A stretch of DNA of 64,000 nt from Streptomyces silvae (GTDB taxonomy: Bacteria; Actinomycetota; Actinomycetes; Streptomycetales; Streptomycetaceae), in NCBI RefSeq assembly GCF_016745505.1, contig NZ_JAERUC010000204.1, forward strand, positions 1 through 64,000, read 5' to 3'. The translations under genes were made by a program, and so were the position numbers. Numbering within the stretch: the stretch's first letter is position 1; each line of letters begins with the position of its first letter. A model generated the notes under the pieces. That model ran no database searches. It was given only the letters and a program-made list of their open reading frames with translations, and was not told the origin of the DNA. This document shows, piece by piece, positions 9,203 to 32,286 of the stretch.

Positions 9203-11176
9203 CTACTCCTTGAACATGTTCTCGGTTCGTGGATCCGGTTCGGGCGTCTGCGGTCCCGGGTGCCCCGGGTCCACCCGCTCGGTACCGGCTGTCGCGGTGG
9301 TGGTGGAGCCGCGGAAGGGCAGCGGGGCGAGACCGTGGGACCGCTGCGGCCCTACGGTCACGGCGGGGCCGGGGGCGGCCGGCTCGGCTGCCTCCGGTGC
9401 GGCGTACGCGTCCGGTGTCTCCGGCTCTTCGGCGGTCTGCGCCTCGGCGAGGTCGACCCCGCGCCGGAAGGCGGCCATCAGTCCCGGGTCGTGCAGGGCG
9501 TTCTCGTCCTCGGCGCGCGGGACCGGTGCCTCCCTGAGCTGCGGGACCAGGTGCTCCTGGTTGCTGCGCCTCGGGAGCTGGGGGCGCTCGGGGCCGGCCT
9601 CGGCGGCCGGGGGCGCCTCGGCGGGGGCTCCGGTGTCCACGGCGGACCGGACGAACGCGACGGACCCGGCGGCCGGGGCGGGTTCGACCGAGGGGGCGGC
9701 TCCGGCCGGCGGCGCGGGCTCGGCGGCGGGGAGGGGCCGGGCGCCGGGCGGGGACGCGGCGAGGTTCGGGCGGTCGACCCGTTCGGCACGGAGCGGGAGC
9801 GGCGGGGCCTCGCCCTGGGGCAGGTCCTGCCGGCTCTGCTGGGGCGGCCGGTCCAGCCGCAGCGGGGCCCCGGGCGGTGTGCCGTGGGCTCCGGCCGGCG
9901 GGGCCGAGTCCGCTGTGGGGGTCGTCGTGGCATCGATGTCGATGCCCAGCAGGATCTCGGGCAGCACCAGGACGGCCTGGGTGCCCCCGTAGATGTTGCT
10001 CTGCAGCCGTACGGCGATGCCATGTCTGCGGGCCAGGGAGGCGACCACGAACAGGCCGATCCGCCCGTCCTGCAGCAGATGGGCGACGTTGACCTGGTCG
10101 GGGTCGGCGAGCAGGGTGTTCATGCGCTTCTGCTCGGGGCCGGGCATGCCGAGCCCCCGGTCCTCCACCTCCAGGGCGAGCCCGGCGGTGACGCGCTGCG
10201 CGCGCAGCAGGACCTGGGTGTGCGGGGCGGAGAACACCGTGGCGTTCTCGACGAGTTCGGCGAGGAGGTGGATCACGTCGGCGACCGCGTGTCCGCGCAG
10301 GGTGCCGTCGATCGGCGGGACCAGCTTGACCCGGGGGTACTGCTCGACCTCGGCGATCGCCGAGCGCAGCACCTCGGTCATGGTGACGGGGTTGCTCCAC
10401 TGCCTCCGCGAGACGGCGCCGCCGAGCACGGCGAGGTTCTCGGCGTGTCTGCGGATGCGGGTGGCGAGGTGGTCCACGTGGAAGAGGCCCTTGAGCAGAT
10501 CGGGGTCCTCGACCTCGTGCTCCAGCTCGTCGAGGATCTGGATCTCGCGGTGCACGAGGGATTGCAGCCGCCGCGCGAGGTTGACGAAGACCTCGACCTT
10601 CTGTTCGTTGCCGTTGCCACGGAACAGCTGCGAGGCCTGGACGACGGCCGCCACCGCGTCGTCCTGCGAACGGGCCATCTCCTGGGCGAGGAGTTCGAAG
10701 GCGTCGGCGTCGGCGTCGGTGGCGGGTGCGGGTGCGGGCGGCCGGGCAGGCAGGGGCTCGCCGTCGCGGAGCTGCTCCACGACGCGCTGGAGCTCGGCCC
10801 GGTGCTGTGCGCCGGTGCGCCGGAGCGCGAGCGTGCGGTCGTGCACCCCGGTGGCGACCCGGCCGGCGCCGAGGAAGGCCGCCGCCACGGCGGCCACGGC
10901 CAGGGCGCCGGATCCGCCGAGCGCCGCGAGGAGACTGCCGGACGGGCGCACCCCGGAGGACCGGATGGTGAAGATGACGGCCGCGGCTCCGCTGAGCAGG
11001 GCCGCCACGGTCGGCAGGAGGGCGGTACGCAGCAGCTGTGGTCGCAGTCGGCTGTCGGGGGCGGGCTGCGCGGCGCGCGGCCGGCTCGCGGCCGAGTGCG
11101 AACGGCCACCCGGACGGCCGTGCCGCCCGCCTTCGCGGCGTTCCGGTCGCGCGGTGGGTGCGCGAAGTTGAGACAT
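9203..11176 (-). CDS. cvnA: Conservon sensor histidine-kinase-like protein CvnA
   Basis: This 657-residue membrane protein has two transmembrane helices near residues 40-90 separated by a very short loop, so it has no substantial extracellular sensor. A coiled helical region contains LVHREIQILDELE. The HATPase domain has N box LAELVENATVFS, G1 VEDRGLGMP and G2 RIGLFVVASLARRHG. The last 200 residues are a proline/alanine-rich disordered tail ending in ENMFKE. Two adjacent ATG codons open the gene; the second (11176) has the better GAGG spacing. CvnA starts the conservon signalling complex and is often catalytically degenerate as a kinase. Confidence 0.9.
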   Translation of the reverse strand: MSQLRAPTARPERREGGRHGRPGGRSHSAASRPRAAQPAPDSRLRPQLLRTALLPTVAALLSGAAAVIFTIRSSGVRPSGSLLAALGGSGALAVAAVAAAFLGAGRVATGVHDRTLALRRTGAQHRAELQRVVEQLRDGEPLPARPPAPAPATDADADAFELLAQEMARSQDDAVAAVVQASQLFRGNGNEQKVEVFVNLARRLQSLVHREIQILDELEHEVEDPDLLKGLFHVDHLATRIRRHAENLAVLGGAVSRRQWSNPVTMTEVLRSAIAEVEQYPRVKLVPPIDGTLRGHAVADVIHLLAELVENATVFSAPHTQVLLRAQRVTAGLALEVEDRGLGMPGPEQKRMNTLLADPDQVNVAHLLQDGRIGLFVVASLARRHGIAVRLQSNIYGGTQAVLVLPEILLGIDIDATTTPTADSAPPAGAHGTPPGAPLRLDRPPQQSRQDLPQGEAPPLPLRAERVDRPNLAASPPGARPLPAAEPAPPAGAAPSVEPAPAAGSVAFVRSAVDTGAPAEAPPAAEAGPERPQLPRRSNQEHLVPQLREAPVPRAEDENALHDPGLMAAFRRGVDLAEAQTAEEPETPDAYAAPEAAEPAAPGPAVTVGPQRSHGLAPLPFRGSTTTATAGTERVDPGHPGPQTPEPDPRTENMFKE

Positions 11177-26787: not shown

Positions 26788-28197
26788 ATGGCAGCTGAAG
26801 ACCTGGTGGAGCGGCGCTCCATCGATGTCGTCCCGGACGACGAACGGCACGGGACCGCGTTCAGTCAGTTCACCCTCTGGCTCGGCGCCAACCTCCAGAT
26901 CACCGCGGTCGTCACGGGCGCCCTCGCCGTCGTCTTCGGCGGTGACGTGGTGTGGTCGGTGGTGGGCCTCCTGCTGGGCAATCTGCTCGGCGGCGCCGTC
27001 ATGGCCCTGCACTCCGCGCAGGGCCCGAAGCTCGGCCTGCCCCAGATGATCCAGTCCCGCGCCCAGTTCGGGGTGCGCGGCGCGGTCGTCCCCCTCCTCC
27101 TGGTCATCCTCATGTACGTGGGCTTCTTCGCGAGCGGCAGCGTGCTCGCCGGCCAGGCGACCGCGCGGCTCACGCACACGGACGACACCACCGGCATCAT
27201 CGCCTTCGCCCTGATCACCGCCGTGGCGGCGGCCGTCGGCTACCGCGTGATCCACGTCCTGGGGCGGGTGGCCAGCGTGGTCTGCGCGCTCGCCTTCGTC
27301 TACCTGGGCATCCGCCTCCTGGACCGCGTGGACCTGTCGGCGCTGCTCGGCGACGCCCACTTCGACCTGCCGATGTTCCTGCTCGCGGTGTCGCTCTCGG
27401 CGTCCTGGCAGCTCGCCTTCGGGCCGTACGTCGCGGACTACTCGCGCTATCTGCCGCGTACGACGTCGGGACGCGCCACGTTCTGGTGGACCCTCTCGGG
27501 ATCGGCCGTCGGCTCGCAGTGGTCGATGACGTTCGGGGTGCTCGTGGCGGCGAGTTCGGGGGAGGCGTTCCTCGCGGACCAGGTCGGGTACGTGGTCGGT
27601 CTGGGCGGCGCGGGGCTGATCGCCTCGTTCCTCTATTTCTCGATCGCGCTCGGCAAGCTGACCATCAACGTGCTGAACACGTACGGCGGCTTCATGTCGA
27701 TGGTGACCGGCATCAGTGGATTCCGGGGCCAGAGGACGCTGTCGCAGCGCGGCAGGGCGGCGTACATCGCGCTGATCATGGTGGCGGGGACGGCGGTGGC
27801 GCTCCTGGGCAAGGACAGCTTCCTGACGTCCTTCAAGGACTTCCTGCTGTTCCTGCTGACGTTCTTCACGCCGTGGTCGGCGATCAACCTGGTCGACTAC
27901 TACCTGATCTCACGGGAGCGGTACGACATCCCCGCGCTCTCTGACCCCCGGGGCCGCTACGGCGCCTGGCGCTGGGACGCGCTCCTCGTCTACGGGGTGG
28001 GCGTCCTCGCCCAGCTCCCGTTCCTCGTGACGCACTTCTACACGGGCCCGCTGGCGGCACCGCTCGGCGGCGCGGACATCTCCTGGATCGTGGGCCTCGC
28101 GGTCCCCGCGGCGCTGTACTGGCTGCTGGCCCGCCGCGACACCTCCCACATCCCGGAGGAGACCCGGTACACCCTGGCGTCCGGCCCGGCGCACTGA
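26788..28197 (+). CDS. NCS1-family permease (cytosine/purine/hydantoin type)
   Basis: This 469-residue integral membrane protein has about 12 hydrophobic helices. Motifs of the nucleobase:cation symporter-1 family include FTLWLGANLQITAVVTGALAV near the N-terminus, SWQLAFGPYVADYSRYLPRTTS in the middle and FLLTFFTPWSAINLVDYYLISR late. Substrates in the family include cytosine, purines, allantoin, hydantoins and thiamine precursors. It follows the binding-protein gene by 54 bases on the same strand, so it may be cotranscribed and bring in a related heterocyclic substrate. Confidence 0.88.
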   Translation: MAAEDLVERRSIDVVPDDERHGTAFSQFTLWLGANLQITAVVTGALAVVFGGDVVWSVVGLLLGNLLGGAVMALHSAQGPKLGLPQMIQSRAQFGVRGAVVPLLLVILMYVGFFASGSVLAGQATARLTHTDDTTGIIAFALITAVAAAVGYRVIHVLGRVASVVCALAFVYLGIRLLDRVDLSALLGDAHFDLPMFLLAVSLSASWQLAFGPYVADYSRYLPRTTSGRATFWWTLSGSAVGSQWSMTFGVLVAASSGEAFLADQVGYVVGLGGAGLIASFLYFSIALGKLTINVLNTYGGFMSMVTGISGFRGQRTLSQRGRAAYIALIMVAGTAVALLGKDSFLTSFKDFLLFLLTFFTPWSAINLVDYYLISRERYDIPALSDPRGRYGAWRWDALLVYGVGVLAQLPFLVTHFYTGPLAAPLGGADISWIVGLAVPAALYWLLARRDTSHIPEETRYTLASGPAH

Positions 28198-28208
28198 CAG
28201 CCGGGATC

Positions 28209-28259
28209 CCGCGGCGGGGGCGGCCGACCCAGGTACGAGGCGCGGCCGCTCCCCCGCGG
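28209..28259. terminator. Bidirectional terminator hairpin
   Basis: CCGCGG-c-GGGGG-CGGCCG (28209-28226) pairs with CGGCCG-ct-CCCCCGCGG (28243-28259) with small bulges around a 16-base loop. It lies between the convergent NCS1 permease and MarR genes. Confidence 0.8.
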
Positions 28260-28269
28260 CGAGGGCCGC

Positions 28270-28695
28270 TCAGGTCAGTGACGTGTCGCCGTGGGATTCG
28301 AGGAGCTTGCGCAGCAGCCGGGCGAGCTCGTCGGACTCCTCCCGGCTGAGGGCCGACAGCATCCGCACCTCGTTCTCCAGGTGCTGCGGGAAGAGCGCGT
28401 CGGCCTCCTGCTTCCCCTTCTCCGTGAGCTGGATCTGCACCGAGCGCCGGTCACCGCCCTGCGGACGTACGCGCTCCACCAGCCCCCTGGCCTCCATACG
28501 GTCGATGCGCCGGGTGACCGCGCCCGAGGTGATCATCGAGGCCTTCAGGAAGGCTCCCGCCGTCATCCGGTAGGGCGGCCCCGACCTGCGCAGGGTCGTC
28601 AGCACGTCGAACTCCCCCGCCTCCAGGCCGTGCCGGGTGTCGAACTGCCGCAGCTCCCGCTCCAGGGTCCGGCTCAGCCGCTGCACCCGGCCCAC
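28270..28695 (-). CDS. MarR-family regulator, probably truncated at its N-terminus
   Basis: The frame encodes 141 residues of a winged-helix MarR protein: FDVLTTLRRSGPPYRMTAGAF, SGAVTRRIDRMEARGLVERV, wing GGDRRSVQIQLTEKGK, and a C-terminal dimerisation helix. The reading frame upstream of the GTG at 28695 still encodes LDTWPAGIV, the end of the usual N-terminal helix. Similarity then stops abruptly at about 28719, where an FMN reductase fragment begins on the other strand. So the first 20-25 residues appear lost by deletion. No ribosome site supports 28695, and the gene may be dead. Confidence 0.75.
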   Translation of the reverse strand: MGRVQRLSRTLERELRQFDTRHGLEAGEFDVLTTLRRSGPPYRMTAGAFLKASMITSGAVTRRIDRMEARGLVERVRPQGGDRRSVQIQLTEKGKQEADALFPQHLENEVRMLSALSREESDELARLLRKLLESHGDTSLT

Positions 28696-28721
28696 GATGC
28701 CCGCCGGCCAGGTGTCGAGGC

Positions 28722-28820
28722 ACCGTCCTCGCCCTGTCGGGCAGCCTGCGGGCGGAGTCGTACAACGCGGCCCTGCTGAGGGCGGCGGGGGAGCACAGTT
28801 CCGGCGAGGTGGACATCGCT
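28722..28820 (+). pseudogene. N-terminal fragment of an NADPH-dependent FMN reductase
   Basis: Translated from 28722, this stretch reads TVLALSGSLRAESYNAALL followed by RAAGEHSSGEVDIAHA. The SGSLRxxSxN motif is the phosphate-binding signature of NADPH-dependent FMN reductases (flavodoxin fold). Only about 33 of about 190 residues remain. A GTG at 28713 is in the wrong frame by one base. The remainder is replaced by a transporter fragment. It is a remnant, not a gene. Confidence 0.75.
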
Positions 28821-28821
28821 C

Positions 28822-29783
28822 ATGCCGCAGCTCAGCCGGGACTGGGGCGTGCCCCAGGAGTCGGCGGCCCGGGCCACGACGGTCTTCGCCGTCGCCTACG
28901 CGTGGGGCTCCCTGGCCGGCGGCCCGCTCTCCGACCGTTACGGCCGCCGCACCATCCTGGCGGGGACCGTGGCCGCCATGGCCGTGGCGACCGCCCTCGT
29001 ACCGCTCGCCACCGGCCTCCCCTGGGCCTCGGCGGCGCGGGCCCTCCAGGGGCTCACGGCCGGGTCATTCGTCCCGATGTCGTACGCCTCTCTGTCGGAA
29101 CGGGTCCCGGAGCGGCTGCCCCTGGCGCTGACCACCGTCAACGCCGCCGGAGGCGCCAGCGCGGTGATCAGCCAGATCGAGGGACAGGTGCTCGGCTCCG
29201 CGCTCGGCTGGCGGGCGGTCTTCCTCGTCTCCGCACCGCTGCTGGCCGTGGGGGCCCTGGCGCTCCGGCGGATCCTGCTGCCCGGCACGGTCGGCACCCC
29301 CGGACGCGACGCCGCCGGCGAGGGCGGTCTGCGGGTCCTGCGTTCGGCGCGTCTGCTGCGCCTGCTCGTCATCGTCGTACCCCTGCTCGGCAGTCTCACC
29401 GCCATCTACACAGTCGTACAGCTGTACGGGCCCGCCGACCTGGTCGGGGATCCCGGCGCGATGCTGCGGGCTGCGGGCCAGCGCCCTGCCCGCCATGGTG
29501 CTCGCCGTCCTCGCCGCCCCCGCGCTCGGCCGTTTCCCCCCGCTGCGGCGGGCCGCCGCCTCACTCACTCGGCGCCCAACTCCCGCTGGTGGTCGGCAGC
29601 GTGGCCGGGGTGGCGCTGATCCTCGCGGCCCTGCTCGCGGCCTGCACCGGACTGCTCGCCCTCGCCCACCGCGCGGCCGTACGGCACGGACGTACAGCAC
29701 CGGCGGACGCGTCCGCGCCGGCCCGGACCGCCGGCCGTCTCGCGCCCCCGGCGGCGGATCCGCAAGCGGCGCACGCCGACTGA
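28822..29783 (+). pseudogene. Decayed MFS transporter (DHA1-like), truncated and frameshifted
   Basis: The frame from 28822 encodes MPQLSRDWGVPQESAARAT followed by the MFS motif A region GGPLSDRYGRRTILAG and further helices. The first transmembrane helix is missing. Near 29475 the homology moves to another frame (ALPAMVLAVLAAPALGRF), consistent with one extra G. Near 29573 it moves again (SLGAQLPLVVGSVAGVALIL), consistent with one extra A. The last frame ends at 29783. Two frameshifts plus the missing start make a functional product unlikely. Joined, the parts resemble a chloramphenicol/arabinose-type drug efflux protein. Confidence 0.8.
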
Positions 29784-29895
29784 GAGGCCGTACGCACGGA
29801 TTCCTCCCGATATGCGCACTCGTGCGGGGCGTCTTAGCCTACTGACATTGATCAGGTAGTCGAGGGCCGGTTCGGCCGGCGGAGGGCGAGCTCCC

Positions 29896-30741
29896 ATGGC
29901 TGAGAAGCGTGTGAGGTCCGGACTGATCGGCGAGTTGTCGGCGGAGTTCCTGGGCACGATGATCCTCATCCTGTTCGGGTGCGGTGTCGTGGCCCAGGTG
30001 GCCGCGGGCGGGGCATTGACCGATCCACCCGGTGGACTCGGGGACCACGACAGCATCGCGTGGGCGTGGGGGCTGGGTGTCACCCTGGGCGTCTACGTGG
30101 CGGCGCGGCTGAGCGGCGCCCACCTCAATCCCGCGGTGACCCTCGCACTCGCCACGTTCAGGGGCTTCCCCTGGCGCAAGGTGGCTCCCTACGCACTGGC
30201 GCAGACGGCCGGCGCGTTCGTGGCCGCCCTCCTCGTCCGCTGGAACTACAGCGAGGCGCTGGCGAAGGCCGACCCCGGACACACCGTCAAGACACAGACG
30301 GTGTTCTCCACCCTCCCCGCCAACGGCAATCCGGCTCTGCCGGTCCACGAGTGGGGCGCGTTCCGCGACCAGGTCATCGGCACCGCCATCCTGCTGCTGC
30401 TGATCATGGCCGTCACCGACGTGCTCAACACGGCTCCGGGCGCGAACCTGGGCCCGTTCATCACCGGTCTGATCGTGGTCGCCATCGGCATGGCCTGGGG
30501 AACCAACGCGGGCTACGCGATCAACCCGGCCCGTGACTTCGGCCCCCGGCTGGCGAGCTTCATCACCGGCTACAACGGGGCGTGGCGAGATCAGTACGGA
30601 AATCTCTACTTCTGGGTACCCATCCTGGGTCCGCTGGTCGGCGGCCTGCTCGGCGCGGGGATGTACAAGGCATTCGTCGGCCGGTTCCTGCCGACGGCGG
30701 AACCCGAGCCGCCGGGACGCGCCCCGGCATCCAAGGCCTGA
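29896..30741 (+). CDS. glpF: Glycerol facilitator / aquaporin (MIP family)
   Basis: This 281-residue membrane protein has both NPA boxes: SGAHLNPAVTLALATF (78-80) and GYAINPARDFGPR (210-212). The Asp directly after the second NPAR is the glycerol-facilitator signature and distinguishes it from water-only channels. Six transmembrane helices are apparent. Glycerol kinase follows 27 bases downstream, so the pair imports and traps glycerol as glycerol 3-phosphate. The gene begins 113 bases after the decayed MFS gene. Confidence 0.93.
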   Translation: MAEKRVRSGLIGELSAEFLGTMILILFGCGVVAQVAAGGALTDPPGGLGDHDSIAWAWGLGVTLGVYVAARLSGAHLNPAVTLALATFRGFPWRKVAPYALAQTAGAFVAALLVRWNYSEALAKADPGHTVKTQTVFSTLPANGNPALPVHEWGAFRDQVIGTAILLLLIMAVTDVLNTAPGANLGPFITGLIVVAIGMAWGTNAGYAINPARDFGPRLASFITGYNGAWRDQYGNLYFWVPILGPLVGGLLGAGMYKAFVGRFLPTAEPEPPGRAPASKA

Positions 30742-30768: not shown

Positions 30769-32286
30769 ATGGCGGACTTCATCGGCGCGGTGGACCAAGG
30801 GACCACCAGCACCCGATTCATGATCTTCGATCACGGCGGCAACGAGGTTGCCCGGCATCAGCTGGAACACGCCCAGGTCCTCCCCCGCTCCGGCTGGGTG
30901 GAGCACGACCCGGTCGAGATCTGGGAGCGCACCAACTCGGTGATGCAGAACGCCCTGCGCTTCGGGGGGCTGTCGGCGGACGATCTGGCGGCCATCGGCA
31001 TCACCAACCAGCGTGAGACGACGGTGGTCTGGGACCCGCGCAACGGACGGCCGTACTACAACGCCATCGTGTGGCAGGACACCCGGACCGACGCCATCGC
31101 GGCGAACCTCGAACGTTCGGGGCGCGGCGACGTCATCCGGCGTAAGGCCGGGCTTCCGCCGGCCACCTACTTCTCCGCCGGCAAGATCCAGTGGATCCTG
31201 GAGAACGTCGACGGCGTACGGGAAGCGGCGGAGGCGGGCCACGCCCTCTTCGGCAACACCGACGCCTGGGTCCTGTGGAACCTGACCGGCGGCCCCGACG
31301 GCGGCATCCACGCCACCGACGTGACCAACGCCAGCCGCACCATGCTGATGGATCTGGAGACCCTCGACTGGGACGACGAGCTCCTGGGCTTCTTCGGCAT
31401 CCCCCGGGCCATGCTCCCCACCATCAACCCGTCGTCGGACGCGGAAGCCTTCGGTGTCACCCGCAGCTCCCGGCCGCTGCGCGGCGCCGTCCCCATCACC
31501 GGGGTCCTCGGCGACCAGCACGCGGCCACCGTGGGGCAGGTCTGCTTCGCGCCCGGCGAGGCCAAGAACACCTACGGCACGGGCAACTTCCTGGTGCTGA
31601 ACACCGGTACGGAGCTGGTCCGTTCGCAGCACGGGCTGCTCACGACGGTGGCGTACAAGTTCGGTGACAGTCCGGTGGTGTACGCGCTGGAGGGCTCCAT
31701 CGCCGTGACGGGGTCCGCGGTGCAGTGGCTGCGCGACCAGATGAAGATCATCAAGTCCGCCCCCGAGAGCGAGGAACTCGCCCGTACGGTCGAGGACAAC
31801 GGCGGCATCTACTTCGTCCCCGCGTTCTCGGGGCTCTTCGCCCCGTACTGGCGCTCCGACGCCCGAGGGGCGATCGTCGGCCTGGCCAGGTACAACGACA
31901 ACGCCCATCTGGCGCGGGCGACGCTGGAGTCCATCTGCTACCAGAGCCGCGATGTCGTCGAGGCCATGGAACGCGACTCCGGTGTCCATCTCGACGTGCT
32001 CAAGGTCGACGGCGGCGTCACCGCCAACGACCTCTGCATGCAGATCCAGGCCGATGTCCTCGGTGTTCCGGTCAGCCGTCCGGTGGTCGCCGAGACGACC
32101 GCTCTCGGCGCCGCGTACGCGGCCGGCCTCGCCGTCGGATTCTGGCGGGACACCGACGAGCTGCGCACCCACTGGAACGAGTCCAAGCGGTGGCAGCCCC
32201 AGTGGACCGAGGAGCAGCGCGCGGAGGGTTACGCGGGCTGGAAGCGGGCCGTGGAACGCACGCTGGACTGGGTCCAGGTCCCCTGA
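30769..32286 (+). CDS. glpK: Glycerol kinase
   Basis: This 505-residue FGGY-family kinase contains [16 protein letters not shown] at the N-terminus (phosphate loop), [41 protein letters not shown] and [20 protein letters not shown]. It has the full family length. It phosphorylates glycerol taken up by the neighbouring facilitator, feeding glycolysis and phospholipid synthesis. GAGAGG precedes the ATG. No glycerol-3-phosphate dehydrogenase gene or GylR-type regulator follows, unlike the usual Streptomyces gyl operon. Confidence 0.95.

Follow-up and report, generated by a model that had tools for sequence, protein, structure and literature searches.

A deletion scar holding the remains of a MarR regulator, an FMN reductase and an MFS transporter in a variable slot of Streptomyces silvae

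Pseudogenes and deletion scars of the ordinary kind in Streptomyces consist of gene fragments that are fused by deletions, interrupted by frameshifts and lodged in variable slots between conserved genes. A second point of reference is provided by the clusters for nybomycin and streptonigrin, which carry PhzC/D/E, a ligase, a KASIII-like enzyme and monooxygenases (PMC6265801, PMC11206028). With these 3-hydroxyanthranilate-type clusters (nyb and stn), the clusters that house relatives of the genes described below have in common PhzC/D/E-type enzymes, an acyl/AMP-ligase, a KASIII-like enzyme, an FAD monooxygenase and an MFS (PMC6265801, PMC11206028); the likeness is one of gene lists that match no named product, and the locus reported here differs from stn and nyb in that it contains no biosynthetic gene at all. 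Streptophenazine clusters were also considered as the parent type and set aside, as their description includes an alkyl chain made by a PKS and the stn/nyb-like gene lists fit better.

Here we analyse a locus at positions 28270-29783 of a 64,000-nucleotide stretch of S. silvae DNA (contig NZ_JAERUC010000204.1, positions 1 to 64,000; hereafter, the window), which lies between genes for an NCS1-type permease and glpF and holds the remains of three genes, encoding a MarR regulator, an FMN reductase and an MFS transporter. Sequence comparison with intact relatives resolves it into three broken gene fragments, three deletion junctions and one 1-bp insertion. A reading made from the window alone (the sequence-only reading) had already called this a deletion scar in which three genes are broken, and alignment to two genomes with intact counterparts, G215 and G290, upholds that view. 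We regard the locus, with high confidence, as a dead gene remnant made by deletion. It is an ordinary pseudogene scar, a case of gene decay with no new system or mechanism, and it falls entirely inside the usual range of Streptomyces scars. No function is expected of it; at most, an N-terminally truncated MarR open reading frame without its own upstream region is left. The explanation that we favour as a whole, and consider probable, is that an inserted segment left this non-functional remnant, which probably represents both ends of a biosynthetic cluster specific to the lineage.

A variable slot between conserved flanks

Both flanks of the scar are conserved. To the left lie an intact NCS1-type permease gene (26788..28197, plus strand) and OpuC-like transporter genes, all named by sequence resemblance; to the right, where conservation with relatives sets in from about 29799, are intact glpF-like (29896-30741) and glpK-like (30769-32286) genes, both on the plus strand. 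Three relatives (G126, G178 and G203) have these flanks in the order seen here, separated by 1.8-3.5 kb, and in each the NCS1-type permease is collinear and adjoins the slot. The slot content in these genomes is an AEC-permease-like gene and a PRC-barrel-like gene, joined in G126 by a further large gene, and the window insert has no similarity to the slot content of any of the three. Given the same flanks with unrelated content in three relatives, the insert is lineage-specific among the genomes seen and the slot, which in the window spans 28197-29800 from the permease to glpF and contains the scar, is variable. S. silvae carries relatives of these AEC-like (77%) and PRC-barrel-like (83%) genes elsewhere, on two other contigs.

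The same scar is absent from all searched genomes of the genus, family and order. Orthologues in exactly this arrangement, which the sequence-only reading had named as evidence that would count against decay, were looked for and none were found in the searched genomes. An Rfam scan of the window returned no matches. A plasmid origin was also considered and rejected, with only distant matches of <60% identity.

Loss of a shared divergent start region

The leftmost piece is a fragment of a MarR-family regulator on the minus strand (28270..28719), with a reading frame that runs from 28719 to a stop at 28270 and corresponds to residues 19-167 of a 167-aa orthologue in G215, plus the stop. Over 28719-28273 it shares 79.9% amino acid identity with the intact G215 protein, and it matches Pfam MarR_2 across the full domain (E=1.3e-12); the fragment thus has the MarR winged helix-turn-helix domain. 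Relative to G215, the N terminus is incomplete: 18 codons, the start codon and the upstream region are missing, and the longest MarR open reading frame that is left begins with a GTG at 28695 and encodes 141 amino acids.

Directly beside this piece, on the plus strand, is a fragment of an FMN reductase (PF03358; 28722..28810, about residues 6-35 of 187); the sequence from 28722 encodes TVLALSGSLRAESYNAALLRAAGEHSSGEVDIA. Positions 28716-28805 match residues 6-35 of the intact 187-aa G215 protein at 44.3 bits (E=4e-8), with about 70% amino acid identity, compared with a best score of 28.5 bits among 20 codon-shuffled windows that served as a chance control. This difference, together with the G215-like orientation beside the same regulator, indicates that the match is not due to chance. 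About 30 of 187 residues are kept, well short of a full-length domain, and because the piece is so short its Pfam FMN_red score (E=4.6e-4) is slightly below the gathering cut-off. The minus-strand MarR homology that ends at about 28719 and the plus-strand FMN reductase start (SGSLRAESYN) that is cut short, now down to about 30 codons, had both been recognized from the window alone, and both identifications hold.

In G215 (contig C81, locus L026), the MarR gene (167 aa; 9347-9847, minus strand) and the gene for an NADPH-dependent FMN reductase (187 aa; 10011-10574, plus strand) are intact and divergent, 163 bp apart. The window has the same genes in the same order, at 80% and about 70% amino acid identity, but there the pair is truncated and fused. 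The two sequences are collinear up to 28720 of the window, where one clean block of 236 bp is missing according to the alignment, after which the FMN reductase resumes (junction 1, 28717..28721). In G215 this block consists of MarR codons 1-18, the 163-bp divergent intergenic region and FMN-reductase codons 1 to about 6. The deletion took the two start codons and, with the intergenic region between them, any promoters located there, so that neither the MarR regulator nor the FMN reductase can be expressed normally. The motif CAGG is present at both edges of the block in G215, a candidate microhomology that would be compatible with a microhomology-mediated deletion, although G215 is not the ancestor.

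The MarR fragment could be read differently: the shortened protein of 141 amino acids, starting from the GTG at 28695, might be a still-working regulator that found a new use once its first helix was lost, with the rest of the locus being debris. Its open reading frame is free of stops, its winged-helix domain is complete, its dN/dS is 0.22 against G215 (Nei-Gojobori) and its dN to outgroups reveals no excess of amino acid changes. A very recent loss is expected to leave an identical substitution pattern, however, and the original start and the upstream region are deleted. The N-terminal helix contributes to formation of the MarR dimer, and it has been lost; the neighbouring gene that such a regulator would control is itself broken. 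We therefore consider a working regulator highly improbable, and treat the fragment as part of a dead remnant.

A transporter gene broken in three places

At junction 2 (28806..28819), codon ~35 of the FMN reductase is fused to codon ~36 of an MFS transporter gene. The closest intact copy of this gene (PF07690, as in the window) is from Streptomyces sp. B-S-A12 (G290; NZ_JASCIS010000044.1, 49-1878), where it lies at a contig end beside an AMP-ligase gene. The first frame of the window copy (28817..29469, plus strand) shares 71% amino acid identity with the G290 protein over 216 residues and contains an MFS_1 domain (Pfam E=6.5e-30, profile positions 18-228 of 347). It lacks the N-terminal ~35 residues, including transmembrane helix 1, as the sequence-only reading had held. 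For every other MFS relative, too, the alignment begins at 28817, which makes junction 2 a true break.

Downstream, the gene no longer occupies a single frame. Alignment to G290 places one extra base near 29466-29470 (a 1-bp insertion and +1 frameshift, 29463..29472), followed on the plus strand by a second-frame fragment (LRASALPAMV...; 29470..29568). At junction 3 (29562..29575), about 200 bp (~65 codons) are missing relative to G290 and the frame changes again, to a C-terminal fragment in the third frame (LGAQLPLVVG...; 29569..29783, plus strand). With a missing start, a 1-bp insertion and an internal deletion, the window copy contrasts with the intact G290 gene. Of the two +1 frameshifts proposed earlier for this gene, the first is thus confirmed; the second, at about 29568, is not a simple indel, as the DNA for ~65 codons is missing there. 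A tandem duplication (GCTGCGG twice) was also weighed as the cause of the first frameshift, and the G290 alignment supports a single extra base instead.

The assembly is a draft of 207 contigs, and a lone 1-bp frameshift of this kind could be a sequencing error, which raises the question of whether the genes are in fact intact and the contig is wrong at the scar. Three independent deletion junctions argue against such an artefact, and these deletions are unlikely to be sequencing errors; in addition, the repeat search listed no long exact repeat that joins the junctions, neither the MFS nor this FMN reductase has another, better copy in the genome, and the flanks are collinear with relatives. 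The alignment with related Streptomyces that had been proposed as a check shows intact genes in G215 and G290 and deletions in the window. An artefact of assembly or sequencing is accordingly very unlikely, and decay by deletion is the reading that we retain.

The decay looks recent in evolutionary terms. Third-position GC is 0.95 in the MarR fragment, 0.94 in the FMN-reductase fragment and 0.92 in the first MFS frame, and the MFS has a dN/dS of 0.31 against G290 (Nei-Gojobori), with a dN to outgroups that is somewhat larger than that of the G290 MFS. From third-position GC of 92-95% and dN/dS values of 0.22-0.31 against the nearest relatives, we conclude that the genes were under selection until recently.

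Gene neighbourhoods of the intact relatives

The FMN reductase is found at E<=1e-60 in only 1 of 393 genomes of the genus, namely G215. Beyond the MarR/FMN-reductase pair, G215 encodes a KASIII-type synthase, an aromatic-ring FAD monooxygenase and a carboxylesterase; on the other side of the pair are a TetR regulator, an MFS, a transposase and an AMP-ligase. G215 has no close relative of the window MFS at E<=1e-30. The transposase gene is of the DDE type, lies between the AMP-ligase and MFS genes (L026, 5722-7134) and could drive rearrangements there.

Homologues of the cluster genes are present in G290 on contigs C53, C54 and C78, and the cluster genes of G215 and G290 are mutually homologous (AMP-ligase, 71%; KASIII, 72%). 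In G108, G368 and G554, the MFS orthologue is accompanied by a KASIII, an FAD monooxygenase, an Rrf2 regulator, a second MFS, WrbA-like enzymes, a SnoaL-like protein and an AMP-ligase; in G108 and G368, enzymes of the PhzD and PhzE types are also nearby. G428 and G440 have a subset of these neighbourhood genes in the stretch that was read, which includes the AMP-ligase, WrbA-like enzymes and a second MFS. Relatives of the window pieces therefore occur inside KASIII/AMP-ligase clusters, often with PhzD/E, and with FAD monooxygenases (neighbourhoods in G215, G108, G368 and G554). A 'redox/drug response cluster', as the sequence-only reading had described the lost locus, fits less well with these biosynthetic surroundings.

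Candidate parents of the scar

The window locus itself has none of the cluster core genes (KASIII, AMP-ligase or PhzC/D/E), its neighbours being the NCS1-type permease and glpF/glpK genes. Elsewhere in the S. silvae genome there is no close KASIII (best match, 36%) and no AMP-ligase match at E<=1e-60, and it is on this ground that the scar would best be read as the ends of a cluster with its middle lost. One PhzE-like gene (55%) on another contig (C91) speaks against a lost cluster. Judged from sequence comparison, the proposal that the scar represents the ends of one lost biosynthetic cluster is about evenly balanced. We advance slightly more tentatively its specific form, in which a whole cluster, otherwise unseen in exact form, would have entered the NCS1-glpF slot in place of PRC-barrel/AEC-type genes and then been lost except for its edges, with MarR/FMN reductase marking one end and the MFS the other.

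The events are as follows, in no set order. Comparison with G215 shows a 236-bp deletion that fused MarR to the FMN reductase. A second deletion, evident at its junction and of a size that we infer, joined the FMN reductase at codon ~35 to the MFS exporter gene at codon ~36; its loss may amount to up to most of a gene cluster, and, for a parent cluster of the G215/G290 type, it would have removed the biosynthetic genes in between. Against G290, the MFS gene was hit further by the 1-bp insertion and the ~200-bp internal deletion. A single parent cluster for all of the pieces, with its middle removed by the second deletion, is a deduction from these comparisons.

Alternatively, a small operon of MarR, FMN reductase and MFS genes, serving a redox or drug stress response, could have been truncated where it stood, without the loss of any larger cluster. 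The order and orientation of the pieces suit such an operon, the MarR-FMN reductase pair is present in G215, and weak MFS matches adjoin MarR relatives of this clade at three loci (L015, L020 and L023). The ancestral order MarR - FMN reductase - MFS that had been suggested earlier is accordingly seen directly in its first half, in G215; its second half is not, as the FMN reductase adjoins this MFS at no locus examined, and the MFS orthologues that we examined sit in biosynthetic-type clusters. Nor did any genome turn up in which a single cluster contains both this MFS and this FMN reductase. Because the full arrangement of either kind was found in no genome, a small-operon ancestor keeps some probability, although we consider it unlikely.

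Under the favoured reading, as the remnant of an inserted segment, the scar is a clear example of the loss of an accessory, probably biosynthetic, segment from a Streptomyces chromosome, by deletions that removed the shared divergent start region of a regulator and a reductase and by erosion of an exporter gene. For annotation it calls for caution, as any automatic 'MarR regulator' and 'MFS transporter' calls at this locus would refer to genes that are probably not working.

Among the relatives' clusters, an AMP-ligase, two MFS, an Rrf2 regulator, WrbA-like enzymes and a SnoaL-like protein form a conserved set in two genera (L032, L033, L075, L073 and L074). In G108, the MFS orthologue with its PhzD/PhzE-KASIII-AMP-ligase neighbourhood (L032, G108:C1:80000-98000) is found near both chromosome ends on opposite strands (matches at 88768 and 11238285), and the two copies are probably inside terminal inverted repeats.
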